Below are positions 24,275 to 41,460 of a stretch of 64,000 bases of DNA, piece after piece. Under the pieces are notes generated by a model. The model was not told the DNA's origin and made no database searches. It worked only from the letters and a program-made list of their open reading frames with translations. The translations under genes and the position numbers were made by a program. The number at the start of each line of letters is the position of its first letter. Positions within the stretch are counted from its first letter, which is position 1. This DNA comes from Bacilli bacterium (lineage in GTDB: Bacteria > Bacillota_I > Bacilli_A > RF39 > UBA660), in contig JAFSGC010000008.1 in NCBI GenBank assembly GCA_017434825.1, forward strand, positions 1-64,000, given 5' to 3'.

Positions 24275-24550
24275 TTAATCCTCTTTTTCTGTATCGATTT
24301 TAGCTAATAACTTTTCAATTAAAGCCCATTCTTCATCTTTCAAAACTGGTAGTAGTACTTCTTTACCATCATTATTTTGATAAATCCCAGCATAAGTTTT
24401 AATAAAACCGTCTTCATCAATAACATCATCTGTATAAACTACATACAAATTATCATTTTCCTCAGTTTCAAAAGTCATAATAACTTTATAATCCCTACGA
24501 TTACCATCGGGATCAGTTAAGCTAATAACATTATTTTCCTTATCAATCAT
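24275..24550 (-). CDS. DUF1292 protein (YrzB)
   Basis: A 91-residue acidic protein, normal for DUF1292. It begins MIDKENNVISLTDPDGNRRD and has the pattern VIMTFETEENDNLYVVYTD and EWALIEKLLAKIDTE. Function of the family is unknown. It overlaps ruvX by 4 nt and touches mltG, as in B. subtilis (yrrK-yrzB-yrrL). Confidence 0.9.
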   Translation of the reverse strand: MIDKENNVISLTDPDGNRRDYKVIMTFETEENDNLYVVYTDDVIDEDGFIKTYAGIYQNNDGKEVLLPVLKDEEWALIEKLLAKIDTEKED

Positions 24551-24963
24551 GAAATACTCCTTAGATAACTCTCCAATATTAGAGTAGCAGCTTCCATATC
24601 GACTTTGTCCTTAAAATCCTTTGATTTCAAATTATTCTCATGTAATATTCTTTCCGCTTCAACAGAAGTAAGTCTTTCATCTACTGTAAATACATTAACA
24701 CCTAAAGCCTCAAGTTTTGGAATAAAGTTTAAAGTTCTTTGAGAAGCAAAGCCTAAAGAACCATCCATATTCTTAGGAAGTCCTATAGCTACATCAGTAA
24801 TATTTTCTTTTTCAATAATTTCTTTTACTTTATCAATCGCAGTATCATAATCTTCTTTAGGAAAACGTATTGTAGTATGCGGAAAAATAATTGTATTAGA
24901 GCGATCCGAAATTGCCACTCCTAATGTTTTTGTTCCTAAATCTAAACCTAAATACCTTGCCAT
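24547..24963 (-). CDS. ruvX: Holliday-junction resolvase-like RuvX/YqgF
   Basis: A 138-residue RNase H-fold protein. It has YLGLDLGTKTLGVAISD at the N-terminus (first catalytic Asp), VAIGLPKNMDGSLGFASQRT, and FTVDERLTSVEAERIL with the second acidic residue, and DMEAATLILESYL at the end. The family is implicated in pre-16S rRNA 5' processing and junction resolution. It sits 2 bp after ireB and overlaps yrzB. Confidence 0.96.
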   Translation of the reverse strand: MARYLGLDLGTKTLGVAISDRSNTIIFPHTTIRFPKEDYDTAIDKVKEIIEKENITDVAIGLPKNMDGSLGFASQRTLNFIPKLEALGVNVFTVDERLTSVEAERILHENNLKSKDFKDKVDMEAATLILESYLRSIS

Positions 24964-24965
24964 AA

Positions 24966-25214
24966 TTATCTTCCTAAATACCCATTTATAATAGCCATTA
25001 GTAATTCTTCTCTTGAGAACTTACTAAGTTTTTTTCTGGCTTCTTCTTTACTTGTTATATAACTTAAATCATCAGTCAATATATAACCCACTAATTGATT
25101 GGTAGCATTATACCCATTTTTTTCAAGGGAACGAACAACTTCATTTAACGTCATCATGATAAGCTCTTGTCTTAATTCTGCAACATTAAATACAGTTGTA
25201 TTATTATCAACCAT
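24966..25214 (-). CDS. ireB: IreB regulatory phosphoprotein
   Basis: An 82-residue protein when started at the ATG preceded by GAGGTG (MVDNNTTVFNVAELRQ); a longer frame has no ribosome site. Conserved pattern: LNEVVRSLEKNGYNATNQLV, GYILTDDLSYITSKEEARKK, FSREELLMAIINGYLG, matching the DUF965/IreB family. In Enterococcus IreB is a substrate of the IreK Ser/Thr kinase and restrains cephalosporin resistance. It heads the ruvX-mltG-trmR-trhP operon. Confidence 0.92.
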   Translation of the reverse strand: MVDNNTTVFNVAELRQELIMMTLNEVVRSLEKNGYNATNQLVGYILTDDLSYITSKEEARKKLSKFSREELLMAIINGYLGR

Positions 25215-25239
25215 AGTTTCACCTCTTTGATCAGTATTA

Positions 25240-25321: not shown

Positions 25322-25350
25322 TTGACAATTTTCTTAAAATTTGGTATAAA
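25322..25350 (+). promoter_or_regulatory. Promoter of the small RNA
   Basis: TTGACA, 17-bp spacer, TATAAA on the plus strand, with predicted start near 25357. It is divergent from the ireB promoter. Confidence 0.75.
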
Positions 25351-25356
25351 TCAATT

Positions 25357-25464
25357 ATCAGGGTATACCATTTACCATGTGTACCTTGATGTTTGCTATT
25401 CTATATGGTAGCCAAAGACCTGAATAGCAAACCTAAAAGCCTGTGTGCCTGCGCAGGCTTTTTT
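25357..25464 (+). ncRNA. Structured small RNA with two hairpins, a possible kissing-loop and its own terminator
   Basis: About 108 nt between a good promoter and a strong terminator, with no open reading frame of note. Hairpin 1: 25359-25368 with 25379-25388 (10 pairs, two G-U). Hairpin 2: 11 perfect pairs, 25391-25401 with 25422-25432. The loop of hairpin 1 contains TACCAT (25373-25378) and the loop of hairpin 2 contains ATGGTA (25405-25410), which are fully complementary, so the two loops can pair. Hairpin 3: AAGCCTG and CAGGCTT (25437-25460) followed by T residues is the terminator. It does not fit the SRP RNA, tmRNA, RNase P RNA, 6S RNA or common riboswitches as I know them. No plus-strand gene lies downstream, so a trans-acting or housekeeping RNA is more likely than a riboswitch. 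Confidence 0.7.
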
Positions 25465-25512: not shown

Positions 25513-25698
25513 TTATTCACAAACTCCTTCACCAGGATTCTTGCCTTCAACATAGGTTTGGCCAAGCATTCCGCAAGACGCCTTAGTAATAGCATCCTTT
25601 AGATAGCCCCCAAAATAATTTACTAATGCAATAGCAATTACACTAATTAATGCAATAATCAGAATATATTCTACTAATGCTTGTCCTTTTTTGTTCAT
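25513..25698 (-). CDS. Flp/class III prepilin-like protein, last gene of the ATPase-like operon
   Basis: A 61-residue protein starting MNKKGQALVEYILIIALISV. KKG^QALVEY is the processing site of Flp-type (and class III) prepilins, with the conserved Glu at +5 followed by Tyr, and a hydrophobic helix of about 20 residues. The mature end is short and has two cysteines (KASCGMLG and EGVCE). The ribosome site is AGGTGA. It lies 26 bp after the gamma-like gene with no terminator between, so it is probably co-transcribed. Maturation needs a prepilin peptidase; none, nor a TadA/CpaF ATPase, is in the window. Confidence 0.8.
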   Translation of the reverse strand: MNKKGQALVEYILIIALISVIAIALVNYFGGYLKDAITKASCGMLGQTYVEGKNPGEGVCE

Positions 25699-25724
25699 AA
25701 TTTTAATTCACCTAAATCCTTTAC

Positions 25725-26516
25725 TTAATCTTCCTCTACTATATTTGTAAATATAACTTTTTTAGAGTTTTCAATATTCTTTTTCAAACTTTTAGCTCGA
25801 AGCTCTTTGATTGTTTTAATACGATCTATTTCTTCAAGCTCTTCAATCTTCTTAAGCGAAGATGCCGTCATTGTATTTCTAATTACGTTTTCAGCAGCCC
25901 ATGAAAATATTTCACAAATCTCCAGCTGATAACAAACGTAATAAGCAATTAAATTGTTTATAAAACTTTTAATATCAGTTTCTACTAAGAAATCTACATT
26001 CTCTTTATATTCTTCATTATATTCAACAGGGAAAACCTGAAGACAAGTAAAATCACTACGAGAGAAATTATAATAATGATTATAATAAATATTTATTTCT
26101 CTAAATTCTCGATTATTTACAGCGTTTACTAAATAATCTTTTATCTTAGGTAAGTCATTATAAAAGTTCTCTTTTGATAATTTCATAATAACTTTATCAT
26201 CAATATATGTAATTTTCTTCCCAATAATAATTTTGTAATCATCTTTTGTTTCTTTAATTTTCGAAGAAACTACTTGATTATATGTAGAACAAAAACCATA
26301 GTCTGATGCTATATATATATTTAATATTGGTTTCGTAGGATCTGGTACAATGCTATTCTTATCTAAAACAATATTATCGTTATACATAATCGAAGATATT
26401 ATCTTAGTTAAAACTGAACTTGTCATACCAAATTCATCTACTTTACTTTTCGCAGCATTTATTCTAACTAACGAAAAGAGATTCATTACTTGAACAATTG
26501 GTTTAATGTTCTTCAT
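25725..26516 (-). CDS. F1 ATPase gamma-like subunit
   Basis: A 263-residue protein, slightly shorter than normal gamma (about 285). The central Rossmann-like domain has NIYIASDYGFCSTYNQVVSS, equivalent to the family ITSDRGLCGGFN. The C-terminal helix shows SWAAENVIRNTMTASSLKK and a long charged helix (ELEEIDRIKTIKELRAKSLK), in register with the gamma EL.ARM.AM..AT.NA helix. The N-terminal helix (VQVMNLFSLVRINAAKSKVD) is the other half of the rotor coiled coil. The Cys/Gly details are changed, showing strong divergence. The start follows GGAGGAC. It normally forms the central shaft turning inside alpha3beta3. Confidence 0.85.
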   Translation of the reverse strand: MKNIKPIVQVMNLFSLVRINAAKSKVDEFGMTSSVLTKIISSIMYNDNIVLDKNSIVPDPTKPILNIYIASDYGFCSTYNQVVSSKIKETKDDYKIIIGKKITYIDDKVIMKLSKENFYNDLPKIKDYLVNAVNNREFREINIYYNHYYNFSRSDFTCLQVFPVEYNEEYKENVDFLVETDIKSFINNLIAYYVCYQLEICEIFSWAAENVIRNTMTASSLKKIEELEEIDRIKTIKELRAKSLKKNIENSKKVIFTNIVEED

Positions 26517-26526
26517 TATTGTCCTC

Positions 26527-26868
26527 CTACATAATTGTTACAACTTTTGAACGATAAAATTCATCTAAGTATGCTAAATAATCAGCTATACTTTCATTTT
26601 CTTTAATTTTTCTAGGTTTATTATCTAGAGTTGTTTGATTAAATAATGTATCGCTAAGAGCTAATAACATTTTCTTACTTTTAATATTTACTAATCTTAT
26701 ATTATCATCGGTTGTAAGTTGGAAAAACATCTTTTCCCCTTCTTTTTCTTCTTCTAAAACTTTCATCGCATATACACAAGGAATACCTTTATACGTTAGT
26801 TCTGTTAATACAACATATTCCTCGTCTTTTTCATCTCTAAAAGTCTTTCCTACTAAACTTTCTTCCAT
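26527..26868 (-). CDS. Small unknown protein in the ATPase-like operon
   Basis: A 113-residue soluble protein. I start it at the ATG (MEESLVGKTF) preceded by GGAGGATT; a frame 7 codons longer starts inside the previous gene. It has a strand-rich part (FRDEKDEEYVVLTELTYKG, then FFQLTTDDNIRLVNIKS) resembling the compact domain of DUF1292/YrzB-type proteins, and a helical C-terminus ending VVTIM. I cannot assign a function. Position before gamma suggests a stator, assembly or regulatory factor. Confidence 0.6.
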   Translation of the reverse strand: MEESLVGKTFRDEKDEEYVVLTELTYKGIPCVYAMKVLEEEKEGEKMFFQLTTDDNIRLVNIKSKKMLLALSDTLFNQTTLDNKPRKIKENESIADYLAYLDEFYRSKVVTIM

Positions 26869-26869
26869 A

Positions 26870-27595
26870 TTAATCCTCCAAATATACATCTAAATTACTT
26901 ACTTTTGTTTGTAATAAATTCACTTTTGAATTAACAACTGTTACATCCTTTAGTAGATCTACACTAACATCATTAATTTTTAACGTTGCATTCTTAATAT
27001 CGGCTTCTACAGTTTCAATTGTATCAGTTTCATAACTATAGTAAGTTACATAATTACTATTTGCAATAACATAACTATATGCACTTAAGTTAGTAACTTT
27101 TCCATTGATAGAAATTGTGCTTTCCACTGGAATTAAATAAGTATCTACTCCATCATATACAAAGAAGTCGGTTTCTGCTTTTTCTTTGCCATTACTATTA
27201 ATAACTGAAGATCCAGCTTCCAAAGAAATATAACTATATTTTGGTAAACGATAAGTTAGATTTTGACGATAATAGAAAACTATTGAACTTACTTTAGGAA
27301 TAATCACTTTTGTCTTGCTACTATCATAAATAGGACTGTTTTCATATACCTTGTATTCCTTAGCAGTAATGTTAATAAGTCCATCATTTTCGTAACTTAA
27401 TTTAGCATCAAATTCCATTTTTGTTTTATCAAAATACTGATATAAATTTGCATTTGAACTTGATACATCAATTTTATTTTTATTCATTTTGATTAAGCTA
27501 ATAATGATTAATGACGCAATAATAACTAGTAATAATGCTCCAACAACGGTACAGGCTATATAATTTTTCTTAACAAATTCTTTTATTTTTTTCAT
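26870..27595 (-). CDS. N-terminally anchored extracytoplasmic protein of the ATPase-like operon
   Basis: A 241-residue protein. A basic start (KKIKEFVKKNYIA) and one membrane helix (about 13-36) imply a short cytoplasmic tail and about 200 residues outside. The outer part is strand-rich with many Tyr/Ser/Asn (FFVYDGVDTYLIPVESTISI). Its layout resembles the N-terminal parts of the 468- and 2004-residue proteins of the same operon: short tail, helix, compact beta domain with a Tyr/Val-rich core. It overlaps the five-helix protein gene by 4 nt. No family recognised. Confidence 0.7.
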   Translation of the reverse strand: MKKIKEFVKKNYIACTVVGALLLVIIASLIIISLIKMNKNKIDVSSSNANLYQYFDKTKMEFDAKLSYENDGLINITAKEYKVYENSPIYDSSKTKVIIPKVSSIVFYYRQNLTYRLPKYSYISLEAGSSVINSNGKEKAETDFFVYDGVDTYLIPVESTISINGKVTNLSAYSYVIANSNYVTYYSYETDTIETVEADIKNATLKINDVSVDLLKDVTVVNSKVNLLQTKVSNLDVYLED

Positions 27596-28090
27596 ATAAA
27601 TTCTCCTTTACCACGAATGTTTTTAATAAATTTAAATGTTGTAAATATATAAAACAATATTGCGAAGACATTCATAGCTATTTGTAATATTAAATAAGAG
27701 AAATCTCCGTGTTCAATTCTTAAAACATTAACTAGATTTGCTAAATAAATTAAAGCTATATTAACTCCATTTATAAATGAATTAATCAGAAGATATTTAG
27801 CATTTTTTAAAATGGCAAATGCTAGTATTATCATAAATAAACTAACCAGAATAAAGGCCATTGTTAAATCAATCTTAAGTATTAACGTATATCCAAGTAG
27901 TAAAAAATTTAGAATTATTAACGTTAAAGCCATAGTCTGTTTATTAGTGTAATTCATAAATAAACCACTTAAATAGATACTTTTTTTAGAGCCTTTCTTA
28001 CTCATTATTAATAAAGTTATTACTAAAGCAACTAAGAATACTGCAAAGACAATTGCAAAGTACAAATAGTTGCTTAGTATATCCTTTAGG

Positions 28091-28098
<8 letters not shown>
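27592..28098 (-). CDS. Five-helix membrane protein of the ATPase-like operon
   Basis: A 168-residue protein with about five membrane helices (roughly 10-32, 54-75, 77-98, 103-125, 133-157), basic cytoplasmic loops (SKKGSKKS) and a C-terminus IKNIRGKGEFI. It is the only polytopic protein in the operon besides the c-like subunit, so it is the positional candidate for the a subunit, yet it lacks the conserved arginine-bearing helix pair of true a subunits and is far shorter (a is usually 220-270 residues). It overlaps the epsilon-like gene by 8 nt. Confidence 0.7.
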
Positions 28099-31015
<2,917 letters not shown>

Positions 31016-31016
31016 A

Positions 31017-31760
31017 CTACACATCCCTTTCATTTATACTATAATCGTATATTCTATCTTGATATTTAATAATCATTCCCTTATAAATATCATCACTATA
31101 AGTGGTTTTTATATATGGACTAAGATAATCATAGTTTTTCGTTTTATTTCCTACTATTACCTCAATTTTTGGTAGATTATTTTCAATTAATAATCCTAAA
31201 TCCAACAAAAATTTTTCTAATTTAAACTTCCTAGTTGTCACATACGAATTAAATACTTCATATTCTTCATCAGTAATCATTTCACCAATAACTTTAATTT
31301 GAGCATCCTTATTTAACATTTTTAACTTATAAATTAAATTTGGACTAAAACGATCTTGAAGCATTTGATACGTTTTATAATTCTCATTAACCTTTGTTTT
31401 ACTAAGAAAGTCTTTTAAAATCTTTTCTTCATCTATTTGAAAGATTTCATCAACTCGATTAGCAATTTTAAGTGCATTAGCCATTTCATAGTCTGTTGAG
31501 CTCATTACATTTAATAAGTCTCTATCTACTGCACTTTTTTGTATTACCCTTTCTTTATCCTTAACATTTTCTTCAGTTTGTTCAGAATTAAGACTACTTA
31601 GCTTTTGTTCTTTTTCAAGAATTTGAGCATCGTAGTCTTGCATCTTCTTAAAATAATATTCTTTACTATCGCTTGTAATATTTTCAATAAGTTTTCTTAG
31701 TGCAAAAAATAATATTAAAGCAAGTAAAGAAATAATAATTATTAAAACTATTATTTCCAT
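31017..31760 (-). CDS. Fused b-delta-like stator subunit
   Basis: A 247-residue protein. One N-terminal membrane helix (about 2-22) followed by a charged coiled coil (ITSDSKEYYFKKMQDYDAQI, residues about 29-80) is the F-ATPase b pattern. From about residue 85 a helical domain, then a C-terminal domain ending DDIYKGMIIKYQDRIYDYSI, matches the delta/OSCP C-terminal motif (I.GG..I..GD.V.D.S). So one chain would carry both the peripheral stalk and the delta cap. b-delta fusions are known in some actinobacterial ATP synthases; I know of none in this context. It follows the c-like gene by 3 bp without a clear ribosome site. Confidence 0.75.
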   Translation of the reverse strand: MEIIVLIIIISLLALILFFALRKLIENITSDSKEYYFKKMQDYDAQILEKEQKLSSLNSEQTEENVKDKERVIQKSAVDRDLLNVMSSTDYEMANALKIANRVDEIFQIDEEKILKDFLSKTKVNENYKTYQMLQDRFSPNLIYKLKMLNKDAQIKVIGEMITDEEYEVFNSYVTTRKFKLEKFLLDLGLLIENNLPKIEVIVGNKTKNYDYLSPYIKTTYSDDIYKGMIIKYQDRIYDYSINERDV

Positions 31761-31763
31761 GGA

Positions 31764-33431
<1,668 letters not shown>

Positions 33432-33432
<1 letters not shown>

Positions 33433-36400
33433 TATGCCGCCTTCCCGCTTTCATACATCGTATAAGCATCGTACTTAGTATCATCTAGAATATAACATTC
33501 ATTTGTAGTCGCATTCCAATAGTTTGATACGCTATTATCAAGACACAAGCTTTCAGTTGTTAAACCAGATGCTACATTACCACCTAAGTAGAATTGGAAT
33601 AAAATTGAGTAACCAGCTCCTACCGGATAATTTGTATTTGGTATTGTTATTTGATAGTAATTATCACCTATTGTTTCACTAGAACTACTATCATTTTTAT
33701 GCTCAACTTTATTATTTTCATCAAAGATTAGTGTGCCATCAATAGCAAATAAGTTATCACCACTTGTTCTTGTAATATGATATACAATACCTGCTACATA
33801 GGCTTCTTGGTCAGGATCAGGAATTAAACTTCCATCTTCAAGACTAATGTAATCTCTTGTCATATTTGTAGCATAACCAAATTTTAATATTGAGGTATTA
33901 CTTAACGCTGAGTATTCAATACGTCCTACTGAAATACCATTATCTCCTAAAGTATAAATCAAGTATGGAACTGAATATACATTTTCAACTGTACCGCCAA
34001 CATTATTTGTATAAGTCTTATAATCTATCATTAAATAATAAGCACTATTTACATCTAAGTTTTCATAAGTTAATGTAGTCATCATATCAAGACCATTTTC
34101 AGTTACATTAAGAACAAATTCAGTACCTTCAATTTTAACTTTATCTGCTCCAGTAGCTAAATAAGCAATATATTGACCATTTTCTTTATTTACTTCAGGT
34201 TTACTAATTACACGGTCTGGATCAGTAAATAATATATCAAAGCTTAAATATGGATTTTTACCATCTTTGAATTCTGCATTTTTAATAACATTTACTGAAG
34301 GATTCTTTAAAGCTCTTAAATTTAAACTATTATTATATATTTCATATTTATTTACTTGACCATCAAGTTCTTCAACTACAGCATTAATTACTAAATTATA
34401 ATTTGTATTAAATTCGAAATCTAAATCTTCACTAATGCTGATATCGTGATAGATTGATGCTAAGTAACTACCATTTTTAGTAAAACACGTTCCATCGTAA
34501 TTATTATAACTTATATCACAAGCTTTATATTTACTTGCATCTACACAAATACTATTATCATCATTGCATATTTGGTATTCTAAATTATCAATTCCAACAA
34601 TATCATCAATTTTATAATTTGTAGTTAAGTATCTAGTAGCATAATCTGTTTCAGAAACAGTATCTAACGCTGCATTTGATACGCTAACCTCTTCAGCAGT
34701 CTTAGTAGTAAATTCATAATTAAATGTTGCATAAGTACTAGATGTTGTATCTACTAAATAAGTTTTTTGACCAGCCATTTTCATATACGCTTTTAGATAA
34801 TAAGTTGTTCCAACGTTTAATTTATCAATTACAATTCGATATTCTACAGTAATTTCTGTATTATCAGTAACAGTTTCATCAAAAGTAATAATTCCTGTTC
34901 TATGATCATAACTATAATTTTCTACAGCACCAGCTGTCGTTCTTACAGCAGTAATATCAAACTTATAATCTGAATCTGCTACAAGTTTATATCGACCATC
35001 CACTACAGTTCCCTTTTGAATCGTTAGGTAATCCTTATTAACTTTAAGTTCTTTTACAAATGCATCCGTTTCTTTATCATATACTTCTACAAATACATAA
35101 CGATTTCCATCTTCTTCTGCATCAATATCATTTTCTGTAATACCAGATAAACCTAAGTTAACTTTTATACCATTAATAATGTTAGCTTTACCCATTACAT
35201 TAATTGATGGAATTACACGATCAAACTTAAAGTTTCCAATACCATTTATTGTAGATGATTTTAATTCTTTAGCCACAATTGGAAGTGTAACTTGCAAAGC
35301 CCCATAACCAAATGTTACTTCAATACCTCTATTTGTAACAACATAACTAGGATTAATGAAGTTTGTACTTTGAGTAGGAATTAAGTTAGAATAAATTGTA
35401 TTTATAAAATAAATTTTTCCACTGCCGATATTATTATCATCAGCATTATCATCAACAAATCCGCCTTTGCTATTAGCATAAGCATATACAGCAGATAATG
35501 CAGATGGACTAAACGTTACTTTATCTAAAGTAATACCATGTACAGATAAATAATTATCGTTATACACTTGACCATTTTGTTCGATGATCTCGTTAGACAT
35601 TACTTGAAATGCATATTTTCCTTGGCCATTAGCTAAATAACTAATATTACCAGAATCATACATTGCGCTTAACGAAACCGTTAAGTTTGCATTTTTGAAT
35701 GAACCAAAAACATTTTTGAATGTTGTAGAATTATATAACTTAGAATAGTCTACATATAAACAAGTGCTTACTTCATCATCACAAGTACCAACGTAAGCAA
35801 TTCTACTTAAATTGTCATATTTGCTTGTGTTTCTCCATGAAGCTTTAACTGATGCACCTTCATAGTAATCAATCATATTCGAACTTATTGGTGAAGTTAT
35901 TCTTGCACTGTTTGTAATATTATTAATCACAAACTTTTTATTTGAACCTTCGATTGCTAATTCTAATGTATAGAACGCAATTCTATTCTTTAATTGTTTA
36001 TTTAATAATTTTTCTTCTTCAGTTAGACTGTCATATGGTTCTGAAATCTTTAATGAGAACAAGTTATTATATTTAGATGAACCTAATTCATTTAGTTCTA
36101 AATCAAATCGAACGTTGCTAATATCATATACGCCTTCAAAGGTGAAATTATTGATATCAACCCTAGTTGCCTCTGTTCCCTCAGCTTCTATTAATATTGG
36201 GTTCAAATATACGTTATATACATCTCCGTTATTTAATCCAGTAAACTTAACACAATCATATTTACTTGTATAATTTTTTCCTTTTAAGTCGCTTGAATTG
36301 GCGCAAGTTGCCGCTTCACCTTCTAAACTAGATTCTCCAATTTCATAATATACTTTATAACCATCAGGTAATGCACCATCAACATCAGTTACATTATATT

Positions 36401-39400
36401 TAAATGAAACTGAATTAGTATCACTTACCCAAGGGAATAGAATCATTGATGGAATTTGTTTTGGAACTTCTATCGGTAACGATTTAACAGGAGTCGGAGT
36501 TTCAATATCATCAGATGAGAACGGATAAACTAAATCTGTTTCGCCATCATCGTTTAAGTCTAACTTAACAGTGTACTCAACTTGATATATACGTCCACGT
36601 TTGAAGAAATCAGGATAATCTTTAAACATGAATTCATAAACAGGAATAATACTGCCTTCATCAATTTCAAGTTTGTCTGAATAAGTCATTTGAGCAGCCT
36701 GAGCAGTTGTAATATCTCTAATAACGAAATTAATCTCTGTTACATACTTTTTATTACCAAAGCTTGGCGTAACTTTTAAACCAATGATTGTATCTCCATT
36801 TAATGCATCTTCGCGATATGCAGGTTTTTCACTATTTAAAATAGGAGTCACTGCAATTGTTGCATCATTATTCGATAATCCTAAGAGAACATCGTTAATT
36901 TCAAATGTTAGTGAATACGGTTTAAATTCTACGTAATCAACACCACTCTTACCGTTTGTAAGTTTAATAGTATATTTTTTAGATATTTGACCATCTTGCG
37001 TTATATGAAGTTTAATTAAATCGTCAAGAGTTAAACCAAAGTCTTTTAGGGTGAATGTTTTGGCATTATTGAAGAACTCTTCAACGATATTGGTTTCAGC
37101 GCCAATATGAATTGATCCCAAGTACATTCCTGTTGCATCAGCGCCTTCATATAACATAATGTCAAACCCTGACATATTGTCCCTTACTGTTTCTGAAGTA
37201 GTTTCATCAATTGAAAATTGCATATTTACTTCAAATACTTTTTCAAAAGCCTCTATTTCATCTAAGTCTCTTGCAGACATATCAGTTAAAATAATATCAG
37301 CTTTTTCAGTCATTAATTTAATAGCCCCAATTTGTGTATAACCAGCTTCAATCTCTTCTGATTCTAAATCAACGAATGCCATTAAACCAATTGTATAAAC
37401 CTCATCACTTGTAAGTTCAGAAAGTTCTAAATAAGCACATTTTGTTGTTTCACTTTCTTCATCTGGGCACTCATTATACTCTAGCATTTTAGTATCACTT
37501 ACACCTAAACTATTTACATATTCAACATAAATATTCTTGGTAGTATCAATAGCGTTATCACTATCTGTAATTGTAAAGTAACCATTTAATGAATTTGATG
37601 TTACTCCAGTTGTTGTAAATCTCATCGTTGGACTCATCTTCGCATCTAGGTTAAAATCGTTACTTGCTAGTGTTTCATAATCAATATTCTTTTCATTATC
37701 ATTCAATGAAATAACAGCTTTATAATAGTATGTATGATGATTTTTAATGTCTTCATCTGTTTTAACTTCGATAGGGTTTAAAGTTTCTTTCTTAATAGAT
37801 TTTACGACTTCATCAGTTTCTTTATCATACACTACATATGTTACTCCTTTGATTGTAGCATCATCATCAACGATAGCGCCTAAATCAAATTTAATATTAT
37901 AGTCTTTCTTGTTTGTTATAGCTATTGGAGAAGCCACAACACTTCCATCCTTAAATGGATTAAACTTTAATGTTTTATTTTCTAGGGTCACAGCAGCACC
38001 GCCAGTATACACAACATTGCCATATGTGACATTTTCAATTTTAGCAGTATATTTAGTATTACTCTTTAAACCGCTGAACGTAACATTTTGGCTTTGGCCA
38101 TTATTTGTAAAGTCATAACTTTCAATTAAATTACCTTGAGTATCGTATAAATTTAACGTGGCATTTGTAAACGTTGCATTTTCAGAAAAATTAATATTGT
38201 ATGAAAGCTCGTCGCTTGTAACATAATCTTTTACTAAATCTAACCCCAAATCTCTAGTAGAGAATGTTCTTTGGAACATTGTGTAATCATTAAATATCGC
38301 ATTATTTCTCACGTAAGAAGCAAATATTGTAACTAAATAATCAGTATTACTTCTTAATCCATCTGCAATATAATCAATCGTTCCAGAATAATTTGTATAC
38401 GTTTTATTAACGATTTCGCCAGTTTGTAAGTTAACATATCTAACTGTTACCGGGCCACTTATTAAGTTATTCTTATCAATTACATTAAATTCTAAATTAA
38501 TTTTATGAGAATTAACTGAACTATTTAAAAGTTCAACATACGGAATATTTTTATATTCAATAACTGTTTCGACCTCATATTCTGGAGTACTTCCTCCGGT
38601 TTGACCAGAACCACCAGAACCTTGACCTCCGCCCTCTCCTGGTTGACCATTACCTCCAGTTTGGTTTCCACCGTCTCCAGAACCGCCGCCAGAACTTCCT
38701 AACTCAGGTTCCTCATATAAAATATCAATATTCTCATTATGATTTATAATAATTTCACTCAAGTTAATCTTAGCTTCGTTTTCATAAAAAATCACTTGTT
38801 TACTAAGATCAATCTTAATTTTGTCGCCAACCATTATGTAGGCTTCATCACTAATAGTCTCAATATTCAATTTTCCGTTATCTATTTTCACAGTTTGACC
38901 ATCAATAAAATTCAATTCAAAATAATAATCAGAAATAAGTTCTTCAGAACTACTTAGCTTTAATTTCAAGCCGTTACCAGCAACAATGTATTTACTATCA
39001 TTGATTCTACCAATAAAATTATCAATTACAATGTCTTTTTCAGTAGAGTCTATCACATATTTACCAGAATTATATTCAATTAAATAATTACTTTTAATAT
39101 TGTAATACGGTACAAATGCAGAACCAACTTGATTCAAATCTAATAAAACTCCATCTGTTAAGAAGTTAATAGATTTATCTTCATAAAACACAAAATTGTA
39201 CTTGCCAACTTCTTGTTTTACATCATCTTTATCTTTAAAGATTACTTCTTTACCATAACCTCTTTTATAACTAGTACCCTCTGTAAAATAAATTTTTTCA
39301 GATTTTTCTGAGTCACTAATGCTTACATAACCATTTTTATAAAAAACAGTTGCATCCTTTGTAGCTATTTTATAAATCGAAAAAAGAAGTGCTGTAAACA

Positions 39401-39446
39401 CTACAACGCTCACAAAAACAATGATCATTAATGATTTATTTTTCAT
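33432..39446 (-). CDS. Giant anchored surface protein (about 2004 residues), first gene of the ATPase-like operon
   Basis: The ATG at 39446 (MKNKSLMIIVFV) follows AGGGTG; a GTG nine bases upstream is possible. The product has one N-terminal membrane helix (about 5-24), a beta domain to about residue 245, a Gly/Gln/Ser hinge (about 247-290), then about 1700 residues of repeated beta modules. Recurrent phrases such as TVRYVNLQTG, GLRSNTDYLVTIFASY, GLKSNTKYTAKIENV and NVGTTYYLKAYMKM are Fn3-like. There is no C-terminal sorting motif or second helix. So it is a long fibre-like stalk held by its N-terminus. No enzyme motif seen. Its position ahead of F1-like genes suggests a surface structure acted on by the ATPase. 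Confidence 0.85.
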
Positions 39447-39475
39447 TACCTTCACCCTATCTTATTATTAATAAT

Positions 39476-39981: not shown

Positions 39982-41460
39982 CTATAAAACAATAGCAATC
40001 AAATTATTAGCACCTTTATTGACTATTTTGGTTACTGTATTTGACAATTTAAATCTTGTATTATCAGGCATCATCGCAAGTTTAGCTTCTATTCCTTCTT
40101 TAACAATTTGTTCTAAACTTCTGCCAAATATTTCGCTTTGCCAAATACTATTCTTGTCAATTTCATAATCTTTCATGATATAGTCAATTAATTCTTTGGA
40201 TTGAATTTCACTACCTATTATCGGTTCAAACGTTGATTCAACATCAACTTTAATCATATGAATCGATGATGCTGTGGCTTTTAACTTAACGCCAAAGCGA
40301 CTTCCCTGTTTGATGATCTCTGGGGTTTCCAATCTCATATCCTTAATTGTTGGATGAACAATGCCATACCCAGTATTTTTCGCCATTTTAATTGCACTTC
40401 GCAAAGATTTAAGTTCTTCTTCTCCACTTTTAAAGGATACAAACATATTAAGTAACGCTGACTTAGTAAGACTTTGACTACCCATAACTTCTTTTAACGT
40501 ATTTTGGTATAGCTCTTCACTACTTTCAAGTGTTACAGTAACAGTTCCATTTGCAGAATCAAAATCGCTAATAAAGCTTTTAGATATATATTCACTGTCT
40601 TCAAAATATTTGGTAATTTCGCCGGCGTCTTTAAGTTTATTTATTGCAAGCGCACTTTCCCTAATTTTACTCAAATAATGTAATTTAATGTGATGATCTT
40701 CGGGTAAAACATCAATCCATTTAGGAATATTGATATTAATATCTTCTACTGGGAACTCATATAATGCAGTTCTTAAAATATCATTAATATCTCTTTGCTC
40801 TAGTTTATCAGCACTACACGCAATTACCGGTACCTCATAACTTTCCTCTAAAGTTTTAGCAAGTTGTTTCGCATTCGAAGATGTCGGTTCTAAGCAGTTT
40901 AAAAGAACAATAAATGGTTTTCCTATTTCTTTTAACTCTGTAATTACTTTAGTTTCCGATTCAATATAATTTTCTCTTTCAATATCAGTAATCGAACCAT
41001 CTGTGGTAACCACTACCGCTATTGTAGCATGATCTTTGATAACTTTTTGTGTTCCTATTTCAGCAGCCTCAGTAAGCGGAATATAATCTTCAAACCATGG
41101 GCACTTAACCATTCTCGGATTTCCGTCTTCATCTAAAAAACCTTGAGCACCATTAATTACGTATCCAACACAATCCACTAACTTAATATTCGTTGTAAAT
41201 TCATCAACTTTAATCGTAGCCCCAGAAGAAGGAACGAATTTTGGCTCCGTAGTCATTATCGTTTTACCTTGTGCACTTTGAGGAACTTCATCTAAACATT
41301 TTTTCTTCTCATACTCATCTTCAACATTGGGAACTACCATATTTTCAATAAATCTTTTGATAAACGTTGATTTTCCAGTTCTTACCGCACCCACAACGCC
41401 AAGATAAATCTGACCGTTCCCCTTCTTGCTAATCGAAGCAATAACATTTTCCTTTTGCAT
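39982..41460 (-). CDS. spoIVA: Stage IV sporulation protein A (spore coat ATPase)
   Basis: A 492-residue protein of the normal SpoIVA length. The Walker A motif is GAVRTGKSTF (about 24-33), with the SpoIVA-type sensor threonine region EVPQSAQGKTIMTTEPKFVP, and Walker B-like IKLVDCVGYVINGAQG. The long middle and C-terminal regions (PEDHHIKLHYLSKIRESALA, LKATASSIHMIKVDVESTFE) match the family. SpoIVA hydrolyses ATP to polymerise the basement layer of the spore coat. Its presence shows the organism can form endospores or descends from a spore former. Confidence 0.96.
   Translation of the reverse strand: MQKENVIASISKKGNGQIYLGVVGAVRTGKSTFIKRFIENMVVPNVEDEYEKKKCLDEVPQSAQGKTIMTTEPKFVPSSGATIKVDEFTTNIKLVDCVGYVINGAQGFLDEDGNPRMVKCPWFEDYIPLTEAAEIGTQKVIKDHATIAVVVTTDGSITDIERENYIESETKVITELKEIGKPFIVLLNCLEPTSSNAKQLAKTLEESYEVPVIACSADKLEQRDINDILRTALYEFPVEDININIPKWIDVLPEDHHIKLHYLSKIRESALAINKLKDAGEITKYFEDSEYISKSFISDFDSANGTVTVTLESSEELYQNTLKEVMGSQSLTKSALLNMFVSFKSGEEELKSLRSAIKMAKNTGYGIVHPTIKDMRLETPEIIKQGSRFGVKLKATASSIHMIKVDVESTFEPIIGSEIQSKELIDYIMKDYEIDKNSIWQSEIFGRSLEQIVKEGIEAKLAMMPDNTRFKLSNTVTKIVNKGANNLIAIVL

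Follow-up and report, generated by a model that had tools for sequence, protein, structure and literature searches.

A predicted orphan small RNA gene with complementary hairpin loops between ireB and a pilin gene in a Bacilli genome

Does the gap between ireB and the neighbouring pilin gene in this 1.07-Mb draft genome (20 contigs) contain a small RNA gene and, if so, of what kind? Both genes lie in the window considered here, i.e. the whole 64-kb stretch of DNA that was analysed, and are separated by 295 bases, with the candidate RNA on the + strand of the gap (Table 1). A preliminary description had placed this RNA between ireB and a divergent neighbour; that orientation was wrong. Both genes are on the minus strand, which means that the RNA points away from ireB and towards the pilin gene, with which it is convergent. 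The ORF list contains no + strand ORF of at least 50 aa between the terminator and position 30861, which makes a leader or attenuator unlikely.

Table 1. Features of the ireB-pilin intergenic region and its flanking genes (positions are those of the window)
Feature	Position	Strand	Description and basis
ireB	24966-25217	-	PF06135, 7.6e-23
ireB promoter	25268-25240	-	TTGAAT-N17-TAAAAT with TG; promoter scan; seen in G003 too
Predicted sigma-70-type promoter	25322-25350	+	TTGACA (25322-25327), 17-nt spacer, TATAAA (25345-25350); extended -10, TG one base ahead of the -10 (TGGTATAAA); sequence, 11/12 matches
Predicted small RNA, 108 nt	25357-25464	+	Sequence, fold and promoter; inferred start
Hairpin 1	25357-25390	+	12 bp (2 G-U), 10-nt loop CAUUUACCAU with UACCAU at 25373-25378; fold
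Hairpin 2	25391-25432	+	11 Watson-Crick pairs, 20-nt loop with AUGGUA at 25405-25410; fold; inverted repeat I1
Predicted intrinsic terminator	25435-25464	+	12-bp stem AAAAGCCUGUGU/GCGCAGGCUUUU and T6 run, TTTTTT on the 3' side of the stem; fold
Terminator-like hairpin of pilin gene	25507-25490	-	Simple scanner
Flp/Fap-like pilin gene	25513-25698	-	PF04964, 2.1e-06, under the Pfam gathering score

Promoter, fold and terminator of the candidate RNA

The predicted promoter lacks the T at position -7 (the final T of the -10 element), and for this reason was missed by the simple scanner, which applies a strict -10 rule. When the 295-nt intergenic region was shuffled 2000 times with its dinucleotides preserved, an equally good + strand site arose 35 times, and the whole window contains nine sites of 11/12 grade when both strands are counted; we regard a promoter match of this quality, taken alone, as moderate evidence. 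The extended -10 motif TTTGGTA(A/T)AA is common to the promoters of ireB and of the RNA, where it occurs in opposite orientations and constitutes inverted repeat I2.

Assuming that transcription starts 7 nt past the -10 element, the transcript would extend over 108 nt. Its calculated minimum free energy is -45.2 kcal/mol; 200 shuffles averaged -22.5 (sd 3.3), which places the RNA at z -6.9, and none of them was as stable. A segment at 25361 (+), overlapping the RNA, is the stablest of the 6390 110-nt segments taken in 20-nt steps along both strands. Hairpins 1 and 2 abut without a linker, and the stems are uninterrupted in the fold. The opposite strand folds less stably (-34.7 versus -45.2 kcal/mol), because G-U pairs of the + strand become A-C mismatches on the complement. 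That the terminator, too, escaped the simple scanner is probably explained by its stem pairing into the T run. The hairpins and terminator are well above chance. The predicted 108-nt unit bounded by a promoter and a strong terminator, as originally proposed, is thus present, and so are its two hairpins, to which the fold assigns stems of 12 and 11 bp in place of the 11 and 10 bp first given. Judged by its parts, the element finds support as a real small RNA gene. The RNA contains no long open frame; two short frames inspected by eye (about 16 codons from 25377 and about 22 from 25405) have no Shine-Dalgarno sequence at a normal distance, and are probably not what the transcript is for.

Distribution among relatives and relation to known RNAs

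No Rfam family reached its gathering threshold in the 64-kb window, and at permissive thresholds no credible match to the RNA was obtained, the best being Phe_leader (RF01859; score 28 versus a threshold of 55, E 0.01). This check had been set beforehand, and its outcome agrees with the initial statement that the RNA belongs to no recognised class. Searches with blastn of 197 genomes returned the RNA's own locus and, elsewhere, only short low-complexity matches, most of which fall in the AT-rich promoter portion of the query. Matches in phages were confined to four 26-nt stretches of the promoter part (E 0.4), and there was no match to the RNA in plasmids or in viral contigs, nor in genome contigs searched by pattern.

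We also searched with a covariance model (R1), which was built from the single sequence entered twice and so has no sequence diversity, and to which stricter filters were applied in the large searches, so that very diverged homologues could escape it. With this proviso, R1 matched its own locus alone in 291 genomes of the family (at E 0.01) and in 395 of the class (at E 0.05). At E 10 in ten genomes of the genus it returned its own locus, a second match in the same genome (2.02) and three weak matches (1.67, 2.88 and 10), none of which lies on the ireB-bearing contig of the genome concerned. Within its own genome R1 recovered the RNA itself and its reverse strand, and the element is single-copy there by both DNA and covariance-model searches. 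Among 47 loci (L035-L045 together with L082-L117, the latter being 36 of the 80 named loci) there was no match except to L035. Homologues with covarying stems were therefore not found among these family, class and genus genomes.

The gene neighbourhood permits a more direct comparison. ireB was found in all ten genus genomes. Of the nine congeners, four carry the pilin gene beside it (G001, G002, G003 and G004), with intergenic lengths of 88, 110, 204 and 111 bases, respectively, the value for G002 being read from locus L082, which we took as its copy. The RNA is absent from all four. In the closest congener, G003, whose IreB is 90% identical, the alignment takes in the pilin gene as well as the ireB promoter and skips the element. 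A different gene lies beside ireB in G005, G006, G007 and G009, and no ORF was found upstream of ireB in G008, where that side contains repeated AATGTTTCTCGCTTACGG(A/G)TGGTGCGAGTAATAAATGATCCCGA units in AT-rich DNA (L044:1-640). The organism probably resembles RF39-type gut Bacilli, and its closest named relatives are mostly assemblies of uncultured gut Bacilli. Absence from relatives, including the four that share its flanks, implies that the element is either recent or quickly lost, and the RNA appears to be an orphan limited to this lineage. The earlier reading of the locus as an orphan structured small RNA is consequently supported by the promoter, fold and terminator as well as by the Rfam and homologue searches.

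Trans-acting intergenic sRNAs of Gram-positive bacteria are 50-200 nt long, with a promoter of their own, stable open-loop hairpins and a Rho-independent terminator, and many of them are independent of Hfq. The candidate RNA resembles them in its predicted promoter and length, its open-loop hairpins and its predicted terminator, but is without a sequence relative. A literature search found nothing on ireB in combination with an intergenic sRNA, and nothing relevant on small RNAs of RF39.

Loop complementarity, possible targets and alternative readings

The two loop hexamers highlighted in the preliminary description, TACCAT and ATGGTA, are both in place and complementary, although their complementarity exceeds chance only marginally (p about 0.02-0.06). 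A loop match of at least 6 nt was obtained in 471 of 20000 mononucleotide shuffles (2.4%) and in 278 of 5000 dinucleotide-preserving shuffles of the loops (5.6%), and the calculated loop-loop duplex (six Watson-Crick pairs, or seven pairs with a G-U; -6.4 kcal/mol) was equalled in stability by 71 of 5000 shuffled loop pairs. In the fold ensemble each G of ATGGTA has an unpaired probability of 0.08, since a GGU/ACC stem forms inside loop 2; furthermore, as there is no linker between the hairpins, an intramolecular kiss would require the two helices to lie side by side.

Target pairing of both loops is at chance level. The exact complement of loop 1 occurs at 12 genomic sites, the RNA itself included, versus nine for the reversed control, and inspection of the remaining 11 revealed no clear start-site pattern; complements of loop 2 with at most two mismatches gave genomic counts of 96 versus 86 and 44 versus 68 for the control. 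In a pairing scan of all 58 start regions that lie within the window, the best partner of loop 1 was the F1-like beta gene (28347-29693) and that of loop 2 the start region of ruvX (24547-24963), results equalled by 223 and 112, respectively, of 300 shuffled loops. As regards RNA-binding proteins, the genome contains no match to Hfq in a search whose control was positive in 5 of 14 genomes, and two matches to the KhpA/B family, one above and one below the cut-off.

How, then, is the element best explained? We favour, with about even confidence, a lineage-specific stand-alone sRNA gene, probably encoding an Hfq-independent antisense regulator that acts in trans through its loops. Such a gene would have been inserted, or have newly arisen, between ireB and the operon of the pilin and F1-like ATPase genes, and would be transcribed from the predicted promoter; by analogy with known sRNAs, its product may recognise its targets by antisense pairing through the two loops left open (UUUACCAU and that of 20 nt), with loop kissing, whether intramolecular or in a dimer, serving as a secondary mask at most. 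Against this reading, the promoter lacks its -7 T, the target scans gave results at chance level and, as no homologue was found, there is no sign of selection. The main rival is that the element is a by-product, i.e. a functionless transcript or the hairpin remnant of an insertion, free of selection. Its absence from every relative examined and the chance-level target scans speak for this, and we give it a real if minor share of the probability; against it, three good parts follow one another on a single strand in the order expected, with uninterrupted stems, and the single copy shows that this is not a repeated mobile hairpin. That the RNA is instead self-associating, its loops 1 and 2 kissing within one molecule or between two to yield a compact fold or a dimer, seems to us unlikely: the stability of the loop-loop duplex speaks for it, but hexamer matches also arise in the shuffles, the GGU of loop 2 is mostly paired inside the loop, and there is no homologue in which the match could covary. 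Plasmid copy-number antisense RNAs of the kissing-loop type likewise have hairpin loops with complementary bases. The complementary hexamers in the loops of the candidate recall this arrangement, whereas here both loops belong to one RNA, and no complementary partner locus or plasmid was found.

The remaining readings are less probable still. The element might belong to the minus strand as a cis element, forming part of the transcript end of the pilin operon, which runs in that direction, or of an ireB leader, and the minus strand does indeed fold; however, ireB has its own promoter downstream of the element, conserved in G003, the terminator-like hairpin of the pilin gene precedes the element, and no minus-strand promoter of at least 11/12 lies nearby, so that we rate this as improbable. 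It is very hard to credit the proposal of a newly arisen RNA gene, in a reduced Bacilli lineage, with two hairpins that recognise one another: loop 2 would mimic an AUGGUAG start-codon region to which loop 1 could bind, like that of the nearby F1-like beta gene, and self-pairing would determine the amount of RNA available for repressing the pilin-ATPase operon. The least probable reading of all is a tracrRNA-like guide RNA, or else an RNA of an existing Rfam family, e.g. an amino-acid leader, that the thresholds missed. The weak Phe_leader score might suggest the latter, and the candidate does share with that family a hairpin upstream of an AAAGCCU...AGGCUUUUUU terminator; but it falls under the threshold, has no downstream gene to control and no Phe-rich leader peptide, and we rejected the assignment as built on generic hairpin and terminator letters. 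A guide RNA would be expected to resemble a second stretch of the genome, as with a CRISPR repeat, and there is none. We thus return to the stand-alone sRNA gene, and consider the RNA to be probably a young, ordinary regulatory RNA. If transcribed, it would be a clear-cut example of an sRNA gene that one species has and its close relatives lack at the corresponding site, and would help the study of how sRNA genes originate; as it stands, it adds to the unproven predictions of orphan sRNAs, and its fold is unusually strong.

Genes neighbouring the candidate RNA

The minus-strand genes at 25513-39455 encode, besides the Flp-like pilin, F1-like gamma, beta and alpha proteins (ATP-synt PF00231, ATP-synt_ab PF00006) and a 2007-aa protein that matches nothing in Pfam or NCBIfam. 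Both the beta and the alpha gene also score, below the cut-offs, with the models for the F1-like ATPase and gliding ATPase of Mycoplasma (MSC_0618, MMOB1660). Clusters of F1-like ATPase genes are described in mycoplasmas (PMC3369863), and, as far as they are set out in that source, the gene run resembles them, here in a genome bearing spoIVA. The latter is a full-length gene (39982-41460, minus strand) with three Pfam domains, i.e. a sporulation gene in a genome of 1.07 Mb.
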